Origin: a virus
Length of the DNA: 20,984 nt
Virus record (IMG/VR): IMGVR_UViG_3300046010_006940
Coordinates: 1-20,984 of that record
Direction: 5' to 3' (one strand)
Shown: in pieces, positions 1,614-14,646 of the stretch
How the letters are laid out: each line of letters begins with the position of its first letter
Numbering within the stretch: position 1 is the stretch's first letter
Program-made: the position numbers and the translations under genes
Notes under the pieces: model-generated
What the model saw: only the letters and a program-made list of their open reading frames with translations
What the model was told of the DNA's origin: nothing
Database searches by the model: none

Positions 1614-1642
1614 TTGACAAAAAGCCGATAGATAGCAAGACT
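1614..1642 (+). promoter_or_regulatory. Promoter for the helicase-methyltransferase operon
   Basis: A perfect TTGACA (1614-1619) is followed after 17 bases by AAGACT. The -10 region reads TAGCAAGACT, identical to that of the promoter at 4302, also at 17-bp spacing, so the two are probably read by the same polymerase form. The predicted start near 1649 gives a leader of about 120 nt before the helicase ATG. Confidence 0.6.
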
Positions 1643-1692
1643 GTCCCGCCGCTGGCCGAGTAGAAGCGACCCGCCGCTAAAATCCGATTGAT

Positions 1693-1754
1693 AGCCTTCG
1701 GGCTTTTCATAAACCGCCGCAACTGGCCTTCTACCTGGTTGCGTGCGGTTTTTT
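1693..1754 (+). terminator. UUCG hairpin and intrinsic terminator in the helicase leader
   Basis: A small hairpin, AGCC-TTCG-GGCT (1693-1704), is followed by a strong stem: AACCGC and CGCAAC (1712-1723) pair with GTTGCG and GCGGTT (1738-1750), with one bulged T. A run of six T ends at 1754. The helicase ATG is only 13 bases further on. Because a promoter lies upstream at 1614, the terminator sits between promoter and gene, as in an attenuator. Confidence 0.8.
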
Positions 1755-1767
1755 GTTTGGGTGCAAA

Positions 1768-3129
1768 ATGGAGTACGAACAGTTCATTGCTACGAAAAGC
1801 CAATGGCTGAATGAGTCGGGATTCGATGCGGAAGAGCTGCCGCCGTTTCTGTATGACTTTCAGCAATATCTCGTTCGGTGGGCCTTGCGGATGGGTCGAT
1901 CTGCGATATTTGCAGACTGCGGAATGGGAAAGACGGCCATGCAGTTGGCATGGGCTCAAAAGGTAATCGAGCGAACGAACAAGCCAGTGCTGATTGTAAC
2001 CCCGCTTGCGGTGGGTGCTCAGACCGTGGAAGAGGCTGAACGATTCGGGATAACTGCTTTTCGATCTCGCGATGGAAAGCACAGCGGCAATCCGGAGTGC
2101 GTTGTCACAAACTACGAGCAGCTTCACAAGTTCGATCCGGCGTCATTCGCTGGTGTTGTCTGTGATGAGTCCAGCGGTATCAAAGACTTCAAGAGCGAAC
2201 GCAAGGCAACGGTCGTTGAGTTTATGAGGACGATTCAGTTCCGTCTGCTTTGCACTGCGACAGCGGCCCCAAATGATTTTTGGGAGCTTGGCACATCATC
2301 CGAGGCTCTTGGATTGCTTGGTTTCCGTGACATGATCACCAAGTTTTTCAAACAGGAAACCTCAAAAGATCATCACGGCTGGGGGCGAACGAAATATCGG
2401 TTTCGAGGGCATGCCGAAGAACCGTTTTGGTCTTGGGTGTGTTCGTGGGCACGGTCAATACAGAAACCGTCTGACCTTGGATTCGATGACAGCCGGTTCA
2501 TTCTTCCGCCTCTCACTGAGCGTGCCCACGTTATCGAATGCACGAAGGCGAGGGCTGGCAACCTGTTCGCGATGGCTGCAAACGACATGAGAGAAGAGCG
2601 GGAAGAACGCCGAGTTACAATCAAAGAACGCTGCGAAAAGGCCGGCGAACTTGCCAGCAATCACGAGGGATCTACAGCACTGTGGGGTGAATTGAATCCA
2701 GAATGCGATCTGCTCGAAAAAATGCTTGACGACTGCGTTCAGGTCAAGGGGTCAATGAGCGATGAACAAAAGGAGGAATACCTTTTGGGATTCGCAAAGG
2801 GACAAATTCGCAGACTGGTCTGCAAACCAAAGATTGGAGCATGGGGGCTCAATTTTCAGATCTGCAATCACGAGGTGATTTTTCCGAGTCATTCGTTTGA
2901 GCAGTACTATCAAGTGGTTCGCCGATGCTACCGATTCGGACAGAAAAACCCCGTTACGATTGATATGGTTTTGAGTGAAGGCGAACGCAAGATTGCTGAA
3001 AATCTTGAGCGTAAAAAGCAGCAGGTTCAAAGAATGTTCCAGAGTCTAGTGGCTCACATGCAAGACAGCATGCACCTCGTGTCCCGTGATTATTTCCCAG
3101 AGAAAGAGCAGGTTCCCAGATGGCTGTAA
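1768..3129 (+). CDS. SNF2-type superfamily 2 DNA helicase/translocase
   Basis: The 453-aa product is an ATP-dependent DNA translocase or helicase of superfamily 2. Seen in order: Walker A GMGKT (52-56), a DESS Walker B variant (133-136) in place of DEAH/DEAD, TATAAP motif III (163-168), a motif V region with GAWGLNFQ (357-364) and motif VI QVVRRCYRFGQ (382-392), whose RxGQ ending is typical of SNF2 proteins. The ATG at 1768 is chosen over a TTG at 1753, which falls in the terminator T-run. The end overlaps the methyltransferase start, so the two are coupled. In phages such helicases are often found beside methyltransferases; a role in DNA modification, replication or host takeover is inference. 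Confidence 0.9.
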   Translation: MEYEQFIATKSQWLNESGFDAEELPPFLYDFQQYLVRWALRMGRSAIFADCGMGKTAMQLAWAQKVIERTNKPVLIVTPLAVGAQTVEEAERFGITAFRSRDGKHSGNPECVVTNYEQLHKFDPASFAGVVCDESSGIKDFKSERKATVVEFMRTIQFRLLCTATAAPNDFWELGTSSEALGLLGFRDMITKFFKQETSKDHHGWGRTKYRFRGHAEEPFWSWVCSWARSIQKPSDLGFDDSRFILPPLTERAHVIECTKARAGNLFAMAANDMREEREERRVTIKERCEKAGELASNHEGSTALWGELNPECDLLEKMLDDCVQVKGSMSDEQKEEYLLGFAKGQIRRLVCKPKIGAWGLNFQICNHEVIFPSHSFEQYYQVVRRCYRFGQKNPVTIDMVLSEGERKIAENLERKKQQVQRMFQSLVAHMQDSMHLVSRDYFPEKEQVPRWL

Positions 3130-4112
3130 TGGATCAAGTTATTTGCGATCAGTACGCGATTTACAACGGAGACTCTGCGGAGGTTCTGCAAAGTATTCCT
3201 GACGAATCGGTGGGTATGTCCATCTATTCCCCGCCATTCGCCACCGAGAACGGCGGATGTCTTTACAACTACAGTTCAAGCGTCAGAGATTTGTCTAACT
3301 CGCGGACGTACGAAGAGTTTTTCGAGCACTACGGTTTCATCGTGAAACACATTGCAAGAGCAATGAAGCCCGGTCGGATTTCCGCAGTGCATTGTATGGA
3401 CGTCCCAAAGCAGGGAGCGAACATTTGCGGCTACACGGATTTTCCAGGCGACATCATTCGGCTTCACGAGTCTTTGGGTTTCGAGATGCTTCCGAGGATC
3501 TGCATTTGGAAAGAGCCACTTGCCGTCCGCAACCGCACCATGAGTAAGGCTCTGGCACATAGGCAGATTTGTGAGGACGCAACGCTAACAAATGTTGCAT
3601 CGGCAGACTACCTGATTCCATTCCGAAAACGTGGAATCAATCCGGAACCGGTGACTCACCCTAACGGGCTGTTTGAGTATCACGGGGAACGTGAGATTCC
3701 GAAAGATCTTTTGAAGTTCAAAGGCTGGAAAGGAAACCAGATCGAGAACAAATACAGTCACTGGATTTGGCGGCATTACGCCTCGTCGTTTTGGGATGAC
3801 ATTCGACTGGAAAACGTGCTGCCATACGAAGAATCAAAAGATGAAGGCGACGAACGTCATCAGCATCCGTTGCAACTGGATGTGATTGCACGGGCTGTGC
3901 AAATGTGGACAAATCCAGGTGATGTAGTGCTCACGCCATTCATGGGAGTTGGTTCTGAGGTCTATGCACCGGTGATTCAGGGGCGTCGAGGCGTGGGATG
4001 TGAGCTGAAGCCAAGCTATTATCGACAGGCAGTGAAAAACCTCGCGGCTGCCGTAGCGGAAAAAAAACCGTCGCCAGTGCGGTCGCTCGCGTTTGCCGAG
4101 GACGACGAATGA
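3120..4112 (+). CDS. DNA methyltransferase, beta class (N4-cytosine or N6-adenine)
   Basis: The 330-aa product should transfer a methyl group from S-adenosylmethionine to an amino group in DNA. The catalytic motif IV SPPF (37-40) comes before the AdoMet-binding motif I FMGVG (274-278), the order that defines beta-class enzymes. The following GVGCELKPSYY (291-301) matches the usual post-motif I region ending in the acidic residue that holds the cofactor. SPP-aromatic is commonest in N4-cytosine enzymes but does not settle the base. The start may be ATG 3120 or ATG 3129; the latter gives a TAATG junction with the helicase. No restriction endonuclease is adjacent, so self-protection or regulation is more likely than a full restriction system. 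Confidence 0.9.
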   Translation: MAVMDQVICDQYAIYNGDSAEVLQSIPDESVGMSIYSPPFATENGGCLYNYSSSVRDLSNSRTYEEFFEHYGFIVKHIARAMKPGRISAVHCMDVPKQGANICGYTDFPGDIIRLHESLGFEMLPRICIWKEPLAVRNRTMSKALAHRQICEDATLTNVASADYLIPFRKRGINPEPVTHPNGLFEYHGEREIPKDLLKFKGWKGNQIENKYSHWIWRHYASSFWDDIRLENVLPYEESKDEGDERHQHPLQLDVIARAVQMWTNPGDVVLTPFMGVGSEVYAPVIQGRRGVGCELKPSYYRQAVKNLAAAVAEKKPSPVRSLAFAEDDE

Positions 4113-4291
4113 AGCCAAAGAAGAAAACAAAACGCATTCTCTCATGGCTCGGATCGGAATGCATCATTGTGTCGCGTGAAACAATCACAACATCGGAGGG
4201 CCACGCAAAGAAATGCTGCACGATTCGCGTTTCCAATCAACTTCGATTTGTATCGGAATCTGAGCTGAAGATGATCGAAATAGAAATCTGA
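4109..4291 (+). CDS. Small basic hypothetical protein (60 aa)
   Basis: The start overlaps the methyltransferase stop as ATGA, so it is the third gene of the helicase-methyltransferase operon. The N-terminus is a lysine-rich cluster, followed by alternating hydrophobic and polar residues that suggest a small beta-rich fold. A CC pair lies at about residues 35-36, with no metal-binding pattern. No membrane segment is present. The function is not recognised; its constant link to the two enzymes would be worth checking in relatives. Confidence 0.7.
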   Translation: MKPKKKTKRILSWLGSECIIVSRETITTSEGHAKKCCTIRVSNQLRFVSESELKMIEIEI

Positions 4292-4301
4292 AAACCACCT
4301 A

Positions 4302-4330
4302 TTGACAAACCTTGCGACCTTAGCAAGACT
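4302..4330 (+). promoter_or_regulatory. Promoter of the early small-gene operon
   Basis: TTGACA (4302-4307) is followed after 17 bases by AAGACT, in the same TAGCAAGACT context as the promoter at 1614. The -35 is followed by AAACCTTGC, similar to the one at 1106. It lies 10 bases after the preceding stop. Transcription should begin near 4337. Confidence 0.6.
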
Positions 4331-4336
4331 CTCTGC

Positions 4337-4434
4337 TCAGTCGTACGAGGACTGGCAAAGAGATCATCGACCGGGAAACCGGATTTGATAAAGCCCTGCG
4401 GAAAAGCTCGTACCTTTTCTGTCAGGGCTTTTTT
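4337..4434 (+). terminator. Folded leader ending in an intrinsic terminator
   Basis: The leader holds a CAGTC/GACTG stem (near 4347-4363) and a CCGG-GAAA-CCGG hairpin (near 4370-4382). It ends in a textbook terminator: AAAGCCCTG (4390-4398) pairs with CAGGGCTTT (4423-4431), an inner GAAAAG/CTTTTC stem lies inside, and six T follow (4429-4434). The next gene starts at 4449, and its ribosome binding site GTGGAG directly abuts the T-run. With the promoter at 4302 this makes a premature-termination layout or a terminated small RNA of about 100 nt. Confidence 0.8.
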
Positions 4435-4448
4435 GTGGAGTGCACGGA

Positions 4449-4778
4449 ATGAATCAACTCCAATTGTTCGATAAAAAGCCAGTCAAACTCTCCCGCCGCT
4501 CCGACCCAATCACGTCGCAGCAAAGTGCGGCAGACACAGAACCAAAACTAAACGGGTTGCAGTCCTCCTGCATGTGGGTTCTCGGCAGAGCCATCGCACC
4601 GAGAACGGCAAACGAGATCGCAGCCGAATGCGTTCGACAGTACGGCAAGATGGCAGAGTCCTATCGCAAGCGGCTTCACGAACTTGTTGAGCTAAACAAG
4701 GCAGAAGAATGCGGCGAACGTCGCTGCGAAGTGACTGGCAAACTGGCAATGACGTTCAGAGCAAAGGAGCAGGCATGA
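4449..4778 (+). CDS. Small protein with N-terminal sliding-clamp motif and winged-helix-like region
   Basis: The ATG at 4449 has GTGGAG about 9 bases upstream; an in-frame GTG at 4440 is less likely. Residues 3-7 are QLQLF, matching the bacterial beta-clamp-binding consensus QL(S/D)LF. A RRSDPITSQQSA stretch follows, which resembles the (R/N)xDPxTSxxAA signature of many small phage proteins. The rest (about 38-100) is helical and looks like a winged helix that could bind DNA. It is the first gene of the early operon and its end overlaps the next gene as ATGA. A clamp-linked role in replication is inference. Confidence 0.75.
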   Translation: MNQLQLFDKKPVKLSRRSDPITSQQSAADTEPKLNGLQSSCMWVLGRAIAPRTANEIAAECVRQYGKMAESYRKRLHELVELNKAEECGERRCEVTGKLAMTFRAKEQA

Positions 4779-5053
4779 CAAAGCCAATCCCGCACCCTGA
4801 ATCTCGCTTCACCGTCCTGTGGCAAGTCGAGGACTACATCCGCAGAGACATGCGTCGGTGTTCACAGTGGCTATGTCAGTGCGTCTGCGGAACAACAAAA
4901 AGAATCGTAGTGACGCAACTCCGCAACGGTCACATCAAGTCGTGCGGATGTTTGCGACGCGAGAAGGCACGAGAAAAAGGACTTAGGACTGCTCACATTG
5001 CACGAGCGGCGTTGAAAGAAAAGCGAAGGAGAGAAGCATGTGGAACGAAATAA
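4775..5053 (+). CDS. Cysteine-cluster (zinc-finger-like) phage protein, 92 aa
   Basis: The start overlaps the preceding stop (ATGA). Cysteines at 34, 36 and 38 in CQCVCG and the pair in SCGCL (57 and 59) match a small metal-binding module common in phage proteins, where a W-C-x-C-x-CG motif is followed about 18 residues later by SCGC. The C-terminal third is strongly basic and helical, suited to nucleic-acid binding. The module also occurs fused to homing-type nucleases in other phages, but no nuclease domain is present here. Function unknown. Confidence 0.75.
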   Translation: MTKPIPHPESRFTVLWQVEDYIRRDMRRCSQWLCQCVCGTTKRIVVTQLRNGHIKSCGCLRREKAREKGLRTAHIARAALKEKRRREACGTK

Positions 5054-5190
5054 TCGACGGCTTTGGCGTGTTCATGGTGCTGGTGATTCTTGGGTGCTTC
5101 GCAGCAGGTTCGTGCGAGGCGATGAATGACAAGGCTGAACGCAAGCGGATTCAGCGAGAGATTCGTGAGAAGTATGGAAGGACGTATTGA
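5038..5190 (+). CDS. Small membrane protein (50 aa)
   Basis: An ATG at 5038, with AGGAGAG just upstream, opens a 50-codon frame overlapping the end of the previous gene by 16 bases. Residues from about 8 to 25 are a continuous hydrophobic stretch (Val, Leu, Ile, Phe, Gly, Ala), followed by a charged helix rich in Arg, Lys and Glu. This gives a single-pass membrane protein with a cytoplasmic tail. A Cys at 26 after the hydrophobic part is not in a good lipobox. The good ribosome binding site and tight packing support it as real. Confidence 0.6.
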   Translation: MWNEIIDGFGVFMVLVILGCFAAGSCEAMNDKAERKRIQREIREKYGRTY

Positions 5191-5191
5191 G

Positions 5192-5425
5192 ATGGCAGAG
5201 CCAAAGCAGTTAACACCATCACAACAGGAGTTGCTCGATGCTATGAAAGCTGGCGTCGTGCTGCACTACATGCCATACGTCGGGCGAGTAAATCCAAACG
5301 AATACTACTTTAGAAGCGACACAATGAGAAAATGCACATCGCCAGCGAAAGCACTCCTAAAAGCCGGTTTAGTTCAGGTGACAAACAAGGATTGGCGCGG
5401 GCATACGCTGGAGTTTGAACACTAA
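5192..5425 (+). CDS. Winged-helix-like small protein (77 aa)
   Basis: The ATG at 5192 follows a good purine-rich site (GGAAGGA) and lies one base after the previous stop; a longer frame from 5126 would run through the previous gene and is rejected. The product starts with a helix containing LTPSQQELLDAMKAG and ends with a short strand pattern (VQVTN...HTLEFEH), consistent with a compact winged-helix domain. No membrane segment or cysteine pattern. It is the last gene before the csrA leader. Function unknown. Confidence 0.65.
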   Translation: MAEPKQLTPSQQELLDAMKAGVVLHYMPYVGRVNPNEYYFRSDTMRKCTSPAKALLKAGLVQVTNKDWRGHTLEFEH

Positions 5426-5614
5426 CCGGCGAGGGCAAGGGTCCACCGGATTTCAAATCAGAACAGGCAGAGCGTTTCTGTCTGGCCCTGTGGCAACGGC
5501 ACAGGGCGAATACTCCCCTCAGGGCCTGACTGATCGGAACTGATGCCGACGGCTGGCCCCCGCAAGCCATCAAGGCGGGTCAGGCTCTGAGTTTTACTCA
5601 CGAAAGGATTTCAC
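5426..5614 (+). promoter_or_regulatory. Folded csrA leader with repeated GGATTTCA and terminator-like stem
   Basis: This 189-nt gap holds no gene. GCCCTGTG (5485-5492) pairs perfectly with CACAGGGC (5500-5507). A 13-bp stem, CTCAGGGCCTGAC (5518-5530) with GTCAGGCTCTGAG (5579-5591), has a single G-U pair, encloses further TGATG/CATCA and GGCT/AGCC pairings, and is followed by TTTT. The word GGATTTCA occurs at 5448-5455 and again at 5606-5613, where it includes the csrA ribosome binding site. GGA is the core recognised by CsrA, so autoregulation through two sites is plausible. No clear promoter is seen. Confidence 0.6.
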
Positions 5615-5854
5615 ATGCTGGTGCTCGCTCGCAATTTTGGACAAGAGGTCGTCGTCACAATTGGCGAACACAAGTTGGTCATTAAGGTCATCGAAATGAC
5701 CGGACGTCAGGTCAAGCTCGGGTTCACGTCATCGCGAGACGTGCGAATTGACCGCAAAGAGATTCATGACGCGCTGATGGAAACTGGCTTCAATCCGGAA
5801 GCAAAGCCCTTCCTGCGAATCGGCGACCCGCTCGTACCGAACGGAGGCAAGTGA
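5615..5854 (+). CDS. csrA: CsrA/RsmA-family translational regulator
   Basis: The product is a member of the CsrA family: small homodimeric RNA-binding proteins that bind GGA motifs in hairpin loops, often over ribosome binding sites. The start MLVLAR matches the family's first strand (MLxLxR), including Leu4, and the VRIDRKEI segment near residues 43-50 holds the conserved RNA-contacting Arg of the VxRxEI motif. At 79 aa it is longer than the usual 60-70 because of a C-terminal extension rich in Pro, Gly and Lys. The usual GE after the first strand is GQ here. It could retune host CsrA targets or control phage mRNAs; both are inference. Confidence 0.93.
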   Translation: MLVLARNFGQEVVVTIGEHKLVIKVIEMTGRQVKLGFTSSRDVRIDRKEIHDALMETGFNPEAKPFLRIGDPLVPNGGK

Positions 5855-6054
5855 TGGACCGCAAACCAGTGACGCCAGACCCGACGCCAGAAGAAATCTG
5901 GGGCACAGAAACCACGATGGGACTGGCTGAACAGATCCGCATGGAACGGCCGGATCACCCGGAAAACAAGGGCGTTTACAGGGCACCGATGATACGAGAG
6001 TGCAGCACCAAAATGCTGCCCGGTGGTAAGGGCGTTTTGAGGGGACAGGGATGA
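5854..6054 (+). CDS. Hypothetical protein (66 aa)
   Basis: The ATG overlaps the csrA stop as TGATG; a GTG one codon earlier is also possible. The product is hydrophilic, with proline- and aspartate-rich N-terminal residues and a glycine-rich tail, and no motif I recognise. The upstream end of csrA (GGAGGCAAGTG) supplies a strong ribosome binding site. Being coupled to csrA on one side and to the RusA gene by an ATGA overlap on the other suggests a genuine gene. Function unknown. Confidence 0.65.
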   Translation: MDRKPVTPDPTPEEIWGTETTMGLAEQIRMERPDHPENKGVYRAPMIRECSTKMLPGGKGVLRGQG

Positions 6055-6428
6055 GTTTGGACCATCATTTCTTTATCGATCCAATCGGTAAACCGCGAAT
6101 GACACAGCGGGACAGATGGAAGCAGCGGCCATGCGTTATGCGGTACAGGGCATTTTGTGACAAGTTGCGAGCAGAGTTTACACAAGCTTACATTAGCCTT
6201 CCCGACGCATTTGAAATTCAGTTCACGATTGAGATGCCCGCCAGTTGGTCGCAGAAGAAACGAAACAAGATGTGCGGCAGGCCGCACCAGAGCCGGCCGG
6301 ATTTGGACAACATGTTAAAGGCCGTTTGCGATGCTGCGAGCAAGGAAGACAGCACTATTCATTCAGTGCTGGCAACCAAAGTTTGGGGCAAGTGTGGCAT
6401 GATTGAAATTGGCGAGTTTTATGGATGA
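6051..6428 (+). CDS. rusA: RusA-type Holliday junction resolvase
   Basis: The 125-aa product should cut four-way DNA junctions during phage recombination or before packaging. The family signature is visible as RPDLDNMLKAVCDA around residues 81-94, with the two metal-binding aspartates of PDLDN, then EDSTIHS near 98-104 giving the third aspartate, followed by the VLATKVW strand. The N-terminal GKPRMTQRDRW resembles the KPRPR-like start of RusA proteins. Length fits the family (about 120 aa). It overlaps both neighbours by a few bases, inside the early recombination operon. Confidence 0.88.
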   Translation: MSLDHHFFIDPIGKPRMTQRDRWKQRPCVMRYRAFCDKLRAEFTQAYISLPDAFEIQFTIEMPASWSQKKRNKMCGRPHQSRPDLDNMLKAVCDAASKEDSTIHSVLATKVWGKCGMIEIGEFYG

Positions 6429-6753
6429 AGTAATCGCAATCAGCTTCCATACATCACTGGAATATCGCGACCACATCTATCGACGCGTCATTAACGAACG
6501 CAGTTACGGAGCAACGGCGGGCGATTCGTTCTGGATGGGGTACGGCGATTACGACGAGGTCGACCAGTTTGCGAGGTATCGAGACGACGAACGCGAGCCA
6601 ATTACAAATCCGTTGTGGCGAGCACGAATTGAAAAAGCCCGAAAGTTTCGGGAAGACAATGATTCGATGTGGAGAGTTCGAGATATGGCGGCAGCGTTGC
6701 GGCCATCAGTGGTGAAGGCATTTTTGAGGGCGTTGAATAATGGCGAAAGCTGA
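6421..6753 (+). CDS. Hypothetical acidic/aromatic protein (110 aa)
   Basis: The ATG at 6421 overlaps the end of the RusA gene by 8 bases; an upstream TTG is not needed. The N-terminal half is rich in Tyr, Asp and Arg (for example GYGDYDEVDQFARYRDDE), and the C-terminal half is helical. There is no membrane segment, cysteine pattern or motif I recognise. The position between the resolvase and the 333-aa putative recombination protein suggests a role in DNA metabolism, but the sequence itself does not show it. Confidence 0.7.
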   Translation: MDEVIAISFHTSLEYRDHIYRRVINERSYGATAGDSFWMGYGDYDEVDQFARYRDDEREPITNPLWRARIEKARKFREDNDSMWRVRDMAAALRPSVVKAFLRALNNGES

Positions 6754-7741
6754 ATTGATACTTACCGAGGAACAGGCGATTAAGTTTGGGCAGGCGTTGC
6801 AGACTCCTCTGGTTGCCATTGCAAGGACGGCTGAGCTGTCTCGGCTGCATGGCGACACCGTCGCAAGCCTGTATCGAGTTGCGGCGTTGAAGGAGTTTCG
6901 GAAAGTCGTATCTGCGGAAGAGATTAAAGCTCTGATTGTCGCAGCGGCTGGTGACGGCTACGAGGTTGCGGAGTCCGACAAGTTTAAGATTCCGGATGAG
7001 ATTAAGCTAGAAGGGGCTGTACGTGCGATGCAGAAAGGCTATCTGTTGAGCGATGAAGCTGGGCCGCATTTCACGGTGATTCTCGGAAAGGGCGGCGTGT
7101 CGGTCTTGATCAAGGAAGCTGGCCACCGTCACAAGTTGCGTCGCGCTGGATGCAAAAACGTTGACGTCGTCGCAGCGGCCACAAAGATGCGGCCACGTCC
7201 AAACGCTGGCGGAAAGTTTGACATGATCGTCGAAGGCCGGGCATCTTGCGTGCTTAATGGTGAAATAATTGAAGTGCATCGTGGGGAGGACCTGCCAATC
7301 ATTCTGCCATGCTACGAAACAGACGGGCCTGACGGGCACGAGGCGAAAGCTCGGCGGCGGTTACTTCGAGATCTTTGGGCAAAGGTGTCTGGAGACTTTG
7401 AACCAATTGAACTGGATGAGGTCGACAGCGAATCACAGGTCGAGCAGGTTCGATCAGCAGCGGCCGTAATCGAACAGAAGACAGTCGCAGAACCATCCGA
7501 AACCGAAAAGCACGAGCCATCACTGGCACGTATCCGCAAGATTCTGGGCGACAACCCGGACCAGTTGACGTTCGTTGAGTCGGTCTGGAATGAAATCGCA
7601 GCGGCGAAGACTCAGGAGAAACTGGAAGAGGCTGGGAAGGAGCTGGCTGCGATGAAAGCCAGCGTAAGTCAGCAAGTGCTGTCACTGGTGCGGCCATACT
7701 ATCAGGCTCGGCAGGCAGAGTTGAAAGGCGGTGCGGCATGA
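6740..7741 (+). CDS. Putative phage recombination protein (RecT-like annealing protein suspected)
   Basis: The 333-aa product has a central domain (about 85-220) with strand-rich segments such as FTVILGKGGVSVLIKEAG and GKFDMIVEGRASC, ending in a basic helix EAKARRRLLRDLWAKVSGD. This order, compact strands followed by an A-K-x-R-R-x-L-x-D-L helix, resembles single-strand annealing proteins of the RecT/Erf type. The neighbouring resolvase and replication genes fit that reading. A low-complexity acidic linker (about 222-260) precedes a C-terminal helical region. I see no diagnostic catalytic motif, so the assignment rests on general resemblance and context. A different nucleic-acid-binding function is possible. 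Confidence 0.7.
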   Translation: MAKAELILTEEQAIKFGQALQTPLVAIARTAELSRLHGDTVASLYRVAALKEFRKVVSAEEIKALIVAAAGDGYEVAESDKFKIPDEIKLEGAVRAMQKGYLLSDEAGPHFTVILGKGGVSVLIKEAGHRHKLRRAGCKNVDVVAAATKMRPRPNAGGKFDMIVEGRASCVLNGEIIEVHRGEDLPIILPCYETDGPDGHEAKARRRLLRDLWAKVSGDFEPIELDEVDSESQVEQVRSAAAVIEQKTVAEPSETEKHEPSLARIRKILGDNPDQLTFVESVWNEIAAAKTQEKLEEAGKELAAMKASVSQQVLSLVRPYYQARQAELKGGAA

Positions 7742-7947
7742 GCGGCATCACCATTGGCCCGGATGGCAACGTGGAGTTATCACAGCGGCCATCAGACAAG
7801 CCAGTTGATTACCTGATCGTTCTTCGTGCGTCGCTCAATGCTGCACAGGCTGCAGAATTTGAGGACTGCGAGGAAGTGATTCTGCGACATCCGAAAGAGC
7901 CTGCGTTGCTGCGGGCAAAGGTCAAAGGCGTGGAGGTGATTCGATGA
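7738..7947 (+). CDS. Hypothetical protein (69 aa)
   Basis: It starts with an ATGA overlap on the putative recombination gene and ends with an ATGA overlap on the next frame, which strongly suggests a translated link in the operon. The middle of the product (about 24-62) alternates strands and helices: DYLIVLRASL, then an acidic helix, then EEVILRHP and LLRAKVKGVEV. This could be a small alpha/beta fold. No cysteines in metal-binding spacing, no membrane segment and no family recognised. Confidence 0.65.
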   Translation: MSGITIGPDGNVELSQRPSDKPVDYLIVLRASLNAAQAAEFEDCEEVILRHPKEPALLRAKVKGVEVIR

Positions 7948-8141
7948 CCAAACGCAAAACACGATTTCACGACGAGTGGTTTGCGGTCTATGGCTATGAA
8001 ATGCCTCCACACGTTGAGCGATTGCCGATCGGGCAGATTCAGGAAGCGATTGAGTTTGGCAGAAAGAAACATCGGCCTGTTACCGAGACGAGTGGGAATG
8101 ATGATTCGATGACCGAATGGGATGCACACAAGCAACACTGA
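7944..8141 (+). CDS. Hypothetical protein (65 aa)
   Basis: Coupled to the previous gene by ATGA. The product is hydrophilic, with a basic N-terminus (MTKRKTRFHDEW) and a central PIGQIQEAIEFGRKKHR helix; the C-terminal third is rich in Ser, Asn and Asp. No domain is recognised. It is followed by a 31-bp gap before the next well-supported start. Small size and tight packing are typical of phage early-region accessory proteins. Confidence 0.6.
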   Translation: MTKRKTRFHDEWFAVYGYEMPPHVERLPIGQIQEAIEFGRKKHRPVTETSGNDDSMTEWDAHKQH

Positions 8142-8172
8142 TATGAGGGCGAGGACAACAAAGGGATTTGAT

Positions 8173-8547
8173 ATGAAAAAAAGACTTTTACGACATGCGG
8201 AAATCGCTCCGTGCATGCTTGGCTGCAACGCCGTAGTTATGCGGCTCTTACAGCAACAACTGAAGTTCGATCGAGCGGCAAATGCCTATCGGAAAGAGCA
8301 CGGCGAGCGTTCAATGGAGATCGATATCGACTTGGTGGAAATAGTCGCGGATATGTACGGAGTGCCACAGGATAACAAAGTGGAAACGAATGCGTCTTTC
8401 TGCGCACTGTGGCCATCAAATGCGTATTGCAGAGACTGGCTACTTCACTGCTGGATGAACGTTGTTGAGGGCAGATGGAGTGTTTTTCGATTCGTTGAAG
8501 AAATTCGCGATGAAGTACACCAGTTACGTTTCAAGGCACTGACATGA
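8173..8547 (+). CDS. Hypothetical protein (124 aa)
   Basis: Three in-frame ATG codons exist (8122, 8143, 8173). The last is chosen because AAAGGG lies 8 bases before it and because the upstream residues look unstructured. The product is helical, contains several Cys and Trp residues (ASFCALWPSNAYCRDWLLHCW) and has no membrane segment. The cysteines are not in CxxC spacing, so a zinc site is not evident. Its end overlaps the next gene as ATGA. No family recognised. Confidence 0.65.
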   Translation: MKKRLLRHAEIAPCMLGCNAVVMRLLQQQLKFDRAANAYRKEHGERSMEIDIDLVEIVADMYGVPQDNKVETNASFCALWPSNAYCRDWLLHCWMNVVEGRWSVFRFVEEIRDEVHQLRFKALT

Positions 8548-8825
8548 GCCATAACCAAAGACTCTACTGGCTTCGCACGCTCGGTTTTACTCCGGAGGAT
8601 TGGGGTGCGGACCTGAAAGAACTGGGGCGCGCGGTTTGCGTCAAAGGCATCCGGCAGGGTCAGCCTGAATCATTCTGGCTTGCTGCTAATGATGGGTCGG
8701 CGGTGGTCCACGGCGAGAACACGCCTGTCAAGACGTGGGAGGAGCTTCAGGCGTGGATTACGGAGCAGCCCGAGGCAAAGAAACCTTTGGCGGCGCAAAG
8801 AAATCTTTTTGGGGATGATGAATGA
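8544..8825 (+). CDS. Small protein with C-terminal sliding-clamp motif
   Basis: The 93-aa product begins with an ATGA overlap. Its last nine residues are QRNLFGDDE; QRNLF (85-89) fits the QxxLF form of the beta-clamp-binding peptide, and such peptides are often found at the very end of a protein as here. The body is a mixed alpha/beta domain with several Trp residues and no catalytic motif recognised. Together with the QLQLF motif of the gene at 4449, it suggests that this phage tethers small proteins to the replication clamp. That function is inference. Confidence 0.65.
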   Translation: MSHNQRLYWLRTLGFTPEDWGADLKELGRAVCVKGIRQGQPESFWLAANDGSAVVHGENTPVKTWEELQAWITEQPEAKKPLAAQRNLFGDDE

Positions 8826-9151
8826 AACTGAAAGCAGCAATGCGGCAATTGGATAAGATGAACCTTGGGCCGGAAGAATACAACTGCAGCTTAATCATGA
8901 TAGGCGTGTGGAAGATCAGCAAAGAGGCCGTTGCCGTGGCTGAATGGATGCGGTTTCCAGTTGATTACGTTTCGGAACGCATCAGGCGTCTGCATGATAG
9001 CGGGATTGTTACGGCCGATGGGATTATGTCAGACTGGAACGACACTGTGACATTCGTTGCGGATATGATGGTGTGTCAGGGGCTCGTGACGAAGAATGGG
9101 AATGTGTATCGGCTCACCGAAGCTGGGCGAGTAGCGGCGTCGAAGGAATGA
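8822..9151 (+). CDS. Winged-helix-like protein (109 aa)
   Basis: Starts with an ATGA overlap and is the last gene of this operon. The pattern fits a small helix-turn-helix or winged-helix protein: helices around SKEAVAVAEWMRFPVDYVSERIRRLHDSGIV, then a second set ending in LVTKNGNVYRLTEAGRVAA. The latter is the typical wing-and-helix ending GLV...YRLTEAGR of MarR-like and PadR-like folds. It might be a transcription regulator or a structural DNA-binding protein. A promoter begins 8 bases after its stop. Confidence 0.65.
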   Translation: MKLKAAMRQLDKMNLGPEEYNCSLIMIGVWKISKEAVAVAEWMRFPVDYVSERIRRLHDSGIVTADGIMSDWNDTVTFVADMMVCQGLVTKNGNVYRLTEAGRVAASKE

Positions 9152-9158
9152 CCTGCCA

Positions 9159-9187
9159 TTGACAATCCCCGCGAAATGAAATAATGT
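9159..9187 (+). promoter_or_regulatory. Promoter of the replication module (TTGACA-17-TAATGT)
   Basis: This is the best promoter in the window: a perfect TTGACA (9159-9164), a 17-bp spacer and TAATGT (9182-9187), with an AT-rich region just before the -10. The word GCCATTGACAA around the -35 is identical to that of the promoter at 14383. Transcription should start near 9194. Confidence 0.7.
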
Positions 9188-9193
9188 GAATCC

Positions 9194-9301
9194 TGCCGTC
9201 AGTCGAGGACAAGCGATTGGCAGCATTAAATTGATATGACAGCCTTCGGGCTTTCTACCCCGCCGTGTTTGGACTTGTCCCCAAATGCGTGCGGGGTTTT
9301 T
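9194..9301 (+). terminator. Leader with UUCG hairpin and intrinsic terminator
   Basis: The leader contains the hairpin AGCC-TTCG-GGCT (9241-9252), the same 12 bases as in the leader at 1693. A terminator follows: ACCCCGC (9257-9263) pairs with GCGGGGT (9291-9297), with an inner TTTGG/CCAAA stem, and a T-run ends at 9301. The next gene starts at 9317. As at 1614 and 4302, the terminator lies between the promoter and the gene start. The CAGTCGAGGAC word in the first part resembles CAGTCGTACGAGGAC in the 4337 leader. Confidence 0.75.
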
Positions 9302-9316
9302 GTTTTTGGATCAATC

Positions 9317-9523
9317 ATGATCATTGAAATACAGACTGGCGACGGGCCGAAGAAAGTTCGCGTTTGCGACTACTGCAAAACGGCGTGCATTCCATACGGC
9401 CGCTACTGTTCAAGCCGATGCTATTACAAGCATCTTGACGCAATGGTGGCGGAGCAAGAGCGGGAACGTGAGCGGCAACTGCAGGAACTCCATGAGTGGG
9501 AGGCTAAACGCAATGGCCGTTAA
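9317..9523 (+). CDS. Zinc-finger-like small protein with charged helix (68 aa)
   Basis: The ATG at 9317 is chosen; a longer frame from 9236 would run through the terminator hairpin. Cysteines at 17 and 20 (CDYC) and at 31 and 35 (CSSRC) form a likely four-cysteine metal site. The last 25 residues are a strongly charged helix rich in Glu and Arg that could be a short coiled coil. No clear purine-rich ribosome binding site is present (GGATCAATC). It lies directly before the replication gene, so DNA-binding is plausible but not shown. Confidence 0.65.
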   Translation: MIIEIQTGDGPKKVRVCDYCKTACIPYGRYCSSRCYYKHLDAMVAEQERERERQLQELHEWEAKRNGR

Positions 9524-9621: not shown

Positions 9622-10457
9622 TGTACGCGAAACTGTTTTCGTCGATCACAGAGTCTTCGCTGTGGTCGGAGCCAAAAGAAGTGCGGTTGCTGTTCGTCAC
9701 GATGCTGGCGAAAGCTGATCAGATGGGTTTCGTCGAGGCGTCGATTCCTGGACTTGCTCGGGTGGCGAACTTGACCGTTGAAGAGACCGAACGCAGCCTT
9801 GAGTGCCTGCAATCTCCTGACAAGTACAGCAAAAACCCTGAGAATGAAGGCCGCCGGGTAATGGTGGTTCCGGGCGGTTTCGTCCTGCTCAATTACGAGG
9901 ACTATCGCGCACGGCGAAGCACTGAGGAGCGGCGTGAGTACATGCGTGAGTACATGCGTGAGTACCGTAAACCCGCTGTAAACGATGTAAAACGCGGTAA
10001 GCCACAGTTAGCCCAAGCAGAAGCAGAAGCAGAAGCAGAAGCAGAAGCAGAAGCAGAAGCAGAAGCAAAAAAGAAAACAAGGAAGAGTTCGTCTTCTCAA
10101 TCAACAATGCACGAATCGGTTCTTTCAACTTTCAATGCAGCGTTTGGGTGTAATTGCAGGTTGACTGATTCACGAAAAAAGGCATTGAACGCAAGGCTCG
10201 GAGATGACTGGTGGGCCGATCACTGGAAAGAGGCAATCGAGATCGGAAGCAAGTCGCCATTCCTCCGGGGCGAAAACGATCGCGGCTGGAAAATCGACTT
10301 TGAGTTTTTCCTGAAGCCTGAAACCGTGACGAAGATCATCGAGGGGAAATACTCTCCAGTGCAGCCAAAGAAAAAAGATCCGTTTCCATTCGACCTGAAC
10401 AACCCAGCATCAAAAGCCGAATTGGAAAAGCTGTTCCTTGACGGGCTGCACACATGA
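9621..10457 (+). CDS. Phage replication initiator / helicase-loader-like protein
   Basis: The 278-aa product has the architecture of phage replication proteins of the lambda O or DnaD type. An N-terminal winged-helix region (about 1-95) includes FVEASIPGLARVANLTVEETERSLECL. A basic REYMREYMREYR segment and an (Ala-Glu)8 linker follow. The C-terminal domain (about 165-250) has WWADHWKEAIEIGSKSPFLRG and FEFFLKPETVTKIIEGKY, a pattern typical of these proteins. It probably binds the origin and recruits the helicase encoded two genes downstream. Iteron-like sites lie before and inside the gene. Its end overlaps the primase gene as ATGA. Confidence 0.85.
   Translation: MYAKLFSSITESSLWSEPKEVRLLFVTMLAKADQMGFVEASIPGLARVANLTVEETERSLECLQSPDKYSKNPENEGRRVMVVPGGFVLLNYEDYRARRSTEERREYMREYMREYRKPAVNDVKRGKPQLAQAEAEAEAEAEAEAEAEAKKKTRKSSSSQSTMHESVLSTFNAAFGCNCRLTDSRKKALNARLGDDWWADHWKEAIEIGSKSPFLRGENDRGWKIDFEFFLKPETVTKIIEGKYSPVQPKKKDPFPFDLNNPASKAELEKLFLDGLHT
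9934..10002 (+). repeat. Tandem repeats and second GTAAAC array inside the replication gene
   Basis: A 12-bp unit GTGAGTACATGC occurs at 9934 and 9946, with a partial third copy at 9958. It is followed at once by GTAAAC (9967), GTAAAC (9978), GTAAAAC (9987) and GTAAGC (9997), spaced 9 to 11 bp apart. The first repeat also encodes an REYM peptide repeat, so protein-level selection could explain it. The second array matches the sites before the gene and is harder to explain by coding alone. The layout recalls the lambda origin inside gene O. Confidence 0.55.
10017..10064 (+). repeat. (GCAGAA)8 hexanucleotide microsatellite
   Basis: Eight perfect tandem copies of GCAGAA encode (Ala-Glu)8. The tract is followed by more purines (GCAAAAAAGAAAAC), so one strand is almost free of T. 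Because the unit is a multiple of three, copy-number change would alter linker length without a frameshift. The purine bias next to the GTAAAC array could also help strand opening. Confidence 0.9.
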
Positions 10458-12261: not shown

Positions 12262-12291
12262 CATTGACACCCCAAAACACGGTGATACCAT
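12258..12291 (+). promoter_or_regulatory. Promoter overlapping the helicase stop (double TTGACA)
   Basis: TTGACA occurs twice in tandem (12258-12263 and 12264-12269); the first contains the helicase TGA stop. TACCAT (12286-12291) lies 16 bp after the second box and resembles the TACCGT -10 at 14406. Transcription would start at about 12298, only a couple of bases before the next ATG, giving an almost leaderless mRNA. Confidence 0.55.
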
Positions 12292-12299
12292 AAACCGCC

Positions 12300-12470
12300 A
12301 TGAAACGAAAACCAAAGAAACGCGGCCCAAAGCCAAAGCCCGAGGCAGACAAGGTCGCGAAGATTAAGATCAGCATCACGAAACGCAGGCTGGCGATTGT
12401 GGATCAGCGCGGGCCGAATCGGTCGGCAGCGATTGGGGCGTTGATTGATGAGGCAGCAAACGAGGAATGA
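12300..12470 (+). CDS. Ribbon-helix-helix DNA-binding protein (56 aa)
   Basis: The ATG at 12300 opens a 56-codon frame with a basic N-terminal tail (MKRKPKKRGPKPKPE), then KIKISITKRRLAIVDQ, a strand-like segment running into a helix. The ending NRSAAIGALIDEAANEE carries the (N/S)RSxxIxxLIxEA helix typical of CopG/Arc-type repressors. Such proteins bind as dimers and often control their own promoter, here directly upstream. No ribosome binding site fits in the 9 bases between the -10 box and the ATG, which agrees with leaderless initiation. It is a likely regulator of the downstream small genes; targets are unknown. Confidence 0.72.
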   Translation: MKRKPKKRGPKPKPEADKVAKIKISITKRRLAIVDQRGPNRSAAIGALIDEAANEE

Positions 12471-13124: not shown

Positions 13125-13499
13125 ATGCGAGTCGAAGCCGTACCAAGAATGTGTCTTTTGATCACTGGTGACTGGCAAACTGTGATCAGTTCCAAAAAGT
13201 ATTGGGAGCAATTGATTGACCAGCGGCCGGACGAGGACATGGCAGACTGGGCACAGTTTCGCGTTGATTGTGCGACGACGGCGGAAATGGTGGCTGCGTA
13301 TCAGGAGTTTCACGACAGGCTGAAACTGCACTGTCATTTTGATTTCGTCGTCAATCAGGAAGAGATCAGCGTTGAGATTATGACAGGATACGCGGAGAAG
13401 GATAACCCGGTCTGCTGGGTGAACGTGAAGCGGTCCACGTCTAAGATGGAAACGGCGATTGACGAGGCGGTCAAAATCTTGACGGCGGCGATCGAGTAG
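13125..13499 (+). CDS. Hypothetical protein (124 aa)
   Basis: The ATG has AAAGGGGATTTG just upstream, a strong ribosome binding site. The product is a soluble mixed alpha/beta protein with Trp and Asp rich parts (LIDQRPDEDMADWAQF) and a C-terminal helix (METAIDEAVKILTAAIE). No domain recognised. The gap before it (13069-13124) holds the CAGCGGA word and no gene; the same word follows its own stop codon. Confidence 0.65.
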   Translation: MRVEAVPRMCLLITGDWQTVISSKKYWEQLIDQRPDEDMADWAQFRVDCATTAEMVAAYQEFHDRLKLHCHFDFVVNQEEISVEIMTGYAEKDNPVCWVNVKRSTSKMETAIDEAVKILTAAIE

Positions 13500-14448: not shown

Positions 14449-14646
14449 ATGTCAGAAAAGAAAAAAGTCTGGTACAGCAAAACCAGCATTTTCGGTGCCC
14501 TGCAGTTGGCGGCCGGAACGCTCGCACTCTTCGCTGGCTCGGATCTGATCCAGCAGTATCCAAAAGCCGTGGCTGCTATTGCAGCGGCATCCGGTGTGGT
14601 GACGATCGGGCTGCGGCTGATTACCTCCATCCCGGTGGAGTGGTAG
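14449..14646 (+). CDS. Holin-like membrane protein (65 aa)
   Basis: The ATG at 14449 is preceded by GGAAGGGGGTG, a very strong ribosome binding site. After a short charged start (MSEKKKVWYSK) come two hydrophobic helices, about residues 14-30 and 40-58, separated by a short polar turn, and the protein ends with PVEW. Size, two membrane segments, basic N-terminus and location in front of a peptidase gene fit a small phage holin, which opens the inner membrane for the lysin. No sequence signature is decisive, so another small membrane protein remains possible. Confidence 0.62.
   Translation: MSEKKKVWYSKTSIFGALQLAAGTLALFAGSDLIQQYPKAVAAIAAASGVVTIGLRLITSIPVEW

Follow-up and report, generated by a model that had tools for sequence, protein, structure and literature searches.

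The window, by which we mean the whole stretch of DNA analysed, is an IMG/VR virus contig of 20,984 bases and holds three modules, M1, M2 and M3. The features of each are given below with their positions, strand and, in brackets, the basis of the assignment.

1614-1642, + strand: M1 promoter, TTGACA, 17 nt, AAGACT (sequence; promoters are enriched here across all elements)
1648-1677, + strand: M1 hairpin P1, loop word L1 GTAGAAG at 1660-1666 (folds)
1689-1709, + strand: M1 hairpin P2, AGCC UUCG GGCU (fold)
1711-1754, + strand: M1 P3, the intrinsic terminator, with L3 CTTCTAC at 1728-1734 and the T-run at 1749-1754 (scan, complement list, fold)
1768-3129, + strand: gene after M1, SNF2/DEAD-type phage helicase (Pfam Helicase_C, PHROG 62 DNA helicase)
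4302-4330, + strand: M2 promoter, TTGACA, 17 nt, AAGACT (sequence)
4331-4362, + strand: M2 hairpin P1, 7-nt loop L1 GTACGAG at 4343-4349 (MFE fold, z -5.5)
4363-4389, + strand: M2 hairpin P2, CCGG GAAA CCGG (fold)
4390-4434, + strand: M2 P3, the intrinsic terminator, with 7-nt loop L3 CTCGTAC at 4407-4413 and the T-run at 4429-4434 (complement list, fold)
4449-4778, + strand: gene after M2, PHROG 1123 family, function unknown
9159-9187, + strand: M3 promoter, TTGACA, 17 nt, TAATGT (sequence)
9194-9225, + strand: M3 hairpin P1, loop word L1 GGACAAG at 9207-9213 (MFE fold, z -4.9)
9238-9255, + strand: M3 hairpin P2, AGCC UUCG GGCU (fold)
9257-9301, + strand: M3 P3, the intrinsic terminator, with L3 CTTGTCC at 9274-9280 and the T-run at 9297-9301 (complement list, fold)
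9317-9523, + strand: gene after M3, a 68-aa cysteine-containing protein, family unknown (window protein searches)

The initial annotation had picked out these modules by their common order, and its description holds: TTGACA with a 17-nt spacer stands at 1614, 4302 and 9159, and each terminator is followed by an ATG, at 1768, 4449 and 9317, lying 13-15 nt past the last T. The words it had listed as shared are likewise present, AGCCTTCGGGCT in M1 and M3, TAGCAAGACT in M1 and M2, and CAGTCG..GAGGAC in M2 and M3. The M3 gene directly precedes the genes for a replication initiator (9621) and DnaB (10969), and relatives of the M2 gene also sit behind a leader of the kind described here in L128 and L088. 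Close DNA relatives of M1 were absent among named phages, and a genome scan for the host with the helicase behind M1 returned two MAG contigs only.

A generic scan counted promoters and terminators in the window at or below chance level, and M1 and M2 each have a weak -10 box (AAGACT); taken by themselves, the parts of the modules therefore prove little. The order of promoter, leader and terminator gains significance because the P1 loop of each module holds a perfect 7-nt complement of that module's terminator loop. A listing of exact complements gave such a reverse complement in all three modules, the pairs being GTAGAAG/CTTCTAC (M1), GTACGAG/CTCGTAC (M2) and GGACAAG/CTTGTCC (M3). With the leader permuted, the chance of a loop complement is 0.6% for M1, 1.5% for M2 and 1.2% for M3, and ~1e-6, or one in a million, for all three jointly. 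The modules had been chosen without knowledge of the loop match, which frees the test from circularity. The minimum-energy structures predicted for M2 and M3 leave both complementary words in open hairpin loops. The M1 fold is weaker than these (z -2.0), and its P1 stem has one mismatch at a place that is paired in the sister contig L005/L088. The shared CAGTCG..GAGGAC word turns out to be the P1 hairpin plus part of its kissing loop. The loop words themselves do not match between modules (5 of 7), which would matter if the RNAs act in trans too.

The predicted unit recurs in many unrelated phages. We scanned contigs with relatives of the M1 helicase, the methyltransferase, DnaB, a helicase profile and the M2 gene, with a descriptor that called for a hairpin whose 7-nt loop can pair with the loop of a terminator farther downstream. 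At a score of at least 26 this gave 39 hits, as against none in dinucleotide-shuffled sequence (4.5 Mb, both strands, loci partly overlapping). When the requirement for a T-run was dropped, 18 of 32 hits still ended in one, while shuffled DNA yielded three hits, all of them without it; of the 14 hits in the real sequence that lack a T-run, four are the antisense mirror of true elements. Among terminators defined without reference to a kiss, an upstream 7-nt loop complement was found for 13 of the 38 located 8-25 nt before an ORF start and for 9 of the 106 located elsewhere. A scan of all IMG/VR contigs for two 7-mers plus a T-run, word pair by word pair, recovered the full structure in 43 of 80 fetched hits for the GTACGAG pair (35 distinct) and in 14 of 80 for the GTAGAAG pair (12 distinct), and in 0 of 80 for the permuted control word GAGCATG. 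The GTACGAG element had 0 matches in 398 genomes of one bacterial phylum, where few were expected anyway, and the descriptor scan found no kissing element above noise in lambda, HK022 or Flavobacterium phage FCV-1. Altogether the arrangement of promoter, P1, linker, terminator with complementary loop and start codon some 14 nt later was found, as a predicted structure, in about 70 distinct phage leaders, which carry at least 19 different words.

The genes behind the leaders mostly belong to two functional groups. One comprises replication initiation and primosomal proteins, primases and SNF2-type helicases; the other comprises HNH and GIY-YIG endonucleases (homing nucleases), as in phage hattifnatt9-1 of Flavobacterium sp. 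LMO9 and its relatives, where a kissing leader (in hattifnatt9-1 at about 13305-13395 of MN812207) stands ahead of an HNH endonuclease gene; beside these are some other genes without assigned function. Because the same leader stands before different genes (L232 as compared with L242/L290, and L377/L312 as compared with L389), the leader behaves as a cassette.

Most of the elements were gathered by a descriptor that itself demands the kiss, the window modules and L523 being free of it and the orthologue sets partly so. An alignment of all elements with MAFFT (A1) was useless, the sequences being too divergent, and orthologue sets and the family A6 were used instead. Between the near-identical leaders L122 and L123 a T>G change in the P1 loop is accompanied by A>C at the terminator-loop position with which it pairs, and the related leaders L083, L085, L086 and L207 carry the words GTAGAGC, GTCGAGA, GTAGAGC and GTAGAAG, all of them matched by their partner. 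L523 (MW202710), found by BLAST only and 75% identical to the leader of L229, reads GGTTCAG/CTGAACC where L229 has GTACGAG/CTCGTAC, so that four of the seven kiss pairs are altered on both sides. In the A6 alignment of ten members the structure, kiss included, is paired in 97.5% of cells, with double changes in 29 of 41 pairs; its covariation score is 0.534, while slid structures reach no more than 0.067 and 0 of 500 shuffles score as high, the covariation of the kiss in A6 stemming entirely from the one divergent row, L523.

Across the elements the typical order is predicted start, P1 with its 7-nt loop, a linker often with a small P2, the P3 terminator and the gene, with P1 adjoining the predicted transcript start. 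The 7-nt loop of P3 begins a median of 22 nt ahead of the T-run, and the gene lies a median of 14 nt past it. A same-strand ORF starts 3-40 nt past the T-run in 55 of 61 elements (random expectation 37%); Shine-Dalgarno-like words are frequent past the T-run, standing between it and the ORF in 37 of these 55, and some elements of the Bacteroidetes type have their ATG immediately after the T-run. A sigma-70 promoter scoring at least 9 is present in 34 of 50 elements, compared with 2.9% of control windows, and TAnnTTTG, the Bacteroidetes-type promoter, in 16 elements, compared with 1.4% of control; the kind of promoter, sigma-70 or Bacteroidetes TAnnTTTG, follows the probable host type, and the RNA architecture is unchanged where the promoter is TAnnTTTG. 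In 56 of 68 elements the complementarity is exactly 7 bp and does not run past the edges of the loops, extension being less frequent than chance; in 40 of 68 a G-C pair closes the terminator loop, and most of the words fit the pattern NNNNNAG. The predicted geometry is accordingly that of kissing hairpins with 7-nt loops in which neither stem is broken. A stable terminator of ~14 bp should work unaided, so that the need for a kiss is not obvious.

No other contact between leader and terminator recurs. A 6-nt match to a terminator arm, as expected of an arm-directed antiterminator, is present in 22% of elements and in 20% of shuffled ones; an antisense promoter downstream (score of at least 9) occurs in 10% of elements and 6% of control windows and is not enriched. 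A leader-peptide attenuator was considered and rejected, since 31 of 68 elements lack an ATG in the stretch from P1 to the terminator loop, and M1 and M2 have none either. Since neither arm-directed antiterminator, antisense promoter nor general leader peptide was found, the kiss is the only recurrent leader-terminator contact, and any switch would be non-classical, because no pairing of the leader with a terminator arm was found to underlie it.

The attenuation reading proposed in the initial annotation gains support, in that the promoter is conserved together with the leader, the terminator and the start codon as a single unit. No promoter is seen between terminator and gene, and expression from the module promoter therefore needs read-through; equally, a strong terminator placed between the promoter and its own gene would make sense only with partial or regulated termination. 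Building on the architecture, the compensatory changes and the promoter and gene context, we infer that all three modules are members of a widely distributed family of cis-acting phage transcription attenuators that would control termination by a loop-loop kiss (probability about 0.7). Transcription would begin at or beside P1, cross a linker often bearing P2 and meet the terminator P3 some 14 nt before the gene. The loops of P1 and of the terminator would then form a 7-bp kiss, both stems being kept as in ColE1, while the terminator emerges from RNA polymerase, and the kiss would set the fraction of polymerases that halt before the gene, thereby controlling replication-initiation and homing-endonuclease genes. 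To judge from the 22-nt spacing, the terminator loop would leave the polymerase shortly before the U-run is completed, and this may be the moment for capture by P1. As to direction, we lean tentatively to P1 catching the terminator loop before closure and so lowering termination, with regulators or other copies of the RNA possibly competing; a kiss that instead holds the leader in its terminated state has almost the same likelihood, and the retained stems would fit both directions.

Several other explanations have to be set against attenuation by the kiss. Accidental complementarity between operon-end terminators and neighbouring promoters would agree with the chance-level counts of generic promoters and terminators in the window, yet shuffled and permuted controls are far exceeded and compensatory change is found besides, so that chance, to which we assign almost no weight, is already refuted. 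It is now also unlikely that the terminators serve only to close the operons upstream of them, the outcome named in the initial annotation as contrary to its proposal, since promoter, P1 and terminator occur together and changes in P1 go with changes in the terminator loop. A kiss that strengthens or speeds the terminator, leaving the gene OFF by default until a phage antitermination protein or a kiss-opening RNA switches it on, is a possible though less than probable arrangement: the kiss is compatible with the terminator hairpin and pairing into the terminator arms does not exceed chance (22% as against 20%), but the terminator stems already look strong, and among the window's proteins no shared antitermination protein was recognised. 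The earlier statement that no antiterminator gene is recognisable was borne out among the window proteins tested; a dedicated antitermination mechanism, suggested there as well, may exist all the same. CsrA, named there among the proteins to test, finds no support as a regulator, GGA being present in only a few loops.

A short terminated RNA, the alternative raised in the initial annotation, may arise as product or by-product. The leader might in particular be a product in its own right, namely a short, stable RNA of ~110 nt, closed by the kiss of P1 with P3, resistant to nucleases and acting in trans as decoy, antisense or dimer, with the gene receiving only leak-through. The coexistence of the kiss with both stems, a complementarity that stops at the loop borders and the closeness of P1 to the predicted transcript start would suit such a folded end product; it would nevertheless need neither an ORF at a median of 14 nt past the T-run (55/61), often with a Shine-Dalgarno-like word (37/55), nor downstream genes falling mainly into two functional groups, and we hold it unlikely. 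Less probable again is a loading platform for processive antitermination, whether similar to HK022 put or protein-dependent, and shaped by the kiss: a structured, promoter-proximal RNA does head phage operons, but no unpaired nucleotides common to several families were seen, the loop sequences vary freely, and neither HK022 nor lambda has such an element above noise.

Loop-loop kissing is familiar from the copy control of ColE1 plasmids, in which two RNAs, RNAI and RNAII, kiss through fully complementary 7-nt loops with both stems kept. The phage leaders share with it two fully complementary 7-nt loops flush with intact stems (56/68 exactly 7) and differ in that the kiss lies within one leader and one of the hairpins is the terminator. 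Lambda pR'/6S RNA/tR' presents promoter, short leader RNA, terminator and genes in the same order as the phage leaders. Lambda Q loads through a DNA site in the late promoter (PMC6606751). The present leaders, in contrast, stand mainly before replication genes, with several units per phage and a conserved kiss of the leader with its terminator. Phages also have the c4 antisense RNA, which acts through short complementary stretches and pairs with separate targets. It is catalogued as RF01695 (PMC2864571). No Rfam family matches the phage leaders, a search at gathering score having come up empty both for the window and for 20 loci totalling 116 kb. The put RNA of HK022, which through its binding to RNA polymerase suppresses pausing as well as termination, distant terminators included (PMC9378689), is likewise a phage RNA just past early promoters that deals with termination; a kiss with the terminator loop is no part of put, however, and the kissing descriptor gave no hit above noise in the genome of HK022.

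By analogy the phage leaders would work most like the replication attenuators of pT181-type plasmids, minus the antiterminator that defines these. There a leader terminator precedes the gene for the replication initiator, a separate antisense RNA kisses the leader, and a leader antiterminator pairs with a terminator arm (PMC4878617). Common to both are the intrinsic terminator ahead of a replication-initiator gene and loop-loop kissing as the recognition step; the phage kissing partner, however, lies within the same leader and not in a separate antisense RNA, and the phage leaders have neither an arm-directed antiterminator beyond chance nor an enriched antisense promoter. Having a promoter, a structured leader, an intrinsic terminator and a same-strand gene just downstream, they are classed from their sequence with the attenuator leaders, a kind already known, of which the built-in kiss would be a new variant. 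No earlier description of it was found in Rfam or the open PMC literature, preprints and most subscription papers lying outside the search.

The kissing leader thus looks like a candidate for an undescribed RNA switch governing the onset of phage replication. It would be a broadly distributed phage regulatory RNA with a programmable rule, two complementary 7-nt loops of which one is the terminator's, and such leaders head replication genes in phages of different promoter types. Early control of phage replication thereby becomes testable through compensatory mutations, the kiss signature may aid the annotation of operon starts in phage metagenomes, and leaders with different words offer natural, mutually distinct attenuators for study. 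A more general role, which we regard as rather doubtful, would be that of a phage riboregulator with a built-in kissing antisense and a word of its own in each case, where leader RNA freed by termination kisses nascent leaders in trans; if so, it would provide RNA-based dosage feedback for each replication operon and might let phages with the same word exclude one another.

Beyond the three attenuator modules, the window carries several other leaders and promoter-like sites, which are as follows.

1107-1112: a further TTGACA, located after the upstream gene
5426-5614: leader without coding sequence, about 190 nt long, immediately 5' of a phage csrA gene
5615-5854: phage csrA gene
12264: TTGACA promoter-like site with a short leader, preceding the gene at 12300
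14384: TTGACA promoter-like site with a short leader, preceding the gene at 14449

The sites at 12264 and 14384, in contrast to the three attenuator modules, have no terminator ahead of the gene. The TTGACA at 1107-1112 opens a non-coding stretch of about 500 nt (1107-1613), which is possibly a structured RNA gene; strong folding is predicted at 1136-1300 (-67.6 kcal/mol, z -4.3), and the folded stretch contains both a long stem, GCGACGGAGA/TCTCCGTCGC, and a hairpin, GACAGCCAG/CTGGCTGTC. Elsewhere, a repeat of AGCAGA units (10010-10069) encodes an (Ala-Glu)n tract within the DnaD-like/replication-initiation gene.

Among the kissing leaders, in which the P1 hairpin loop is complementary to the loop of the leader's own terminator hairpin, the P1 loop word ends in AG at its 3' end in most elements, its counterpart being a terminator loop that begins with CT. 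Structured matches in IMG/VR were more numerous for GTACGAG, the word of the second module, than for GTAGAAG, that of the first. In a long-P1 subfamily (L224, L229, L246, L259, L261, L262, L216, L219, L265 and L523, elements from other phage contigs) the lower P1 stem begins GACGGTTTA or similar, and the segment separating P1 from the terminator contains conserved sequence resembling AGGCTGACC. Finally, since the leaders of L232, L242 and L290 are almost the same while their upstream promoters and downstream genes differ, this kissing leader apparently travels as a cassette.
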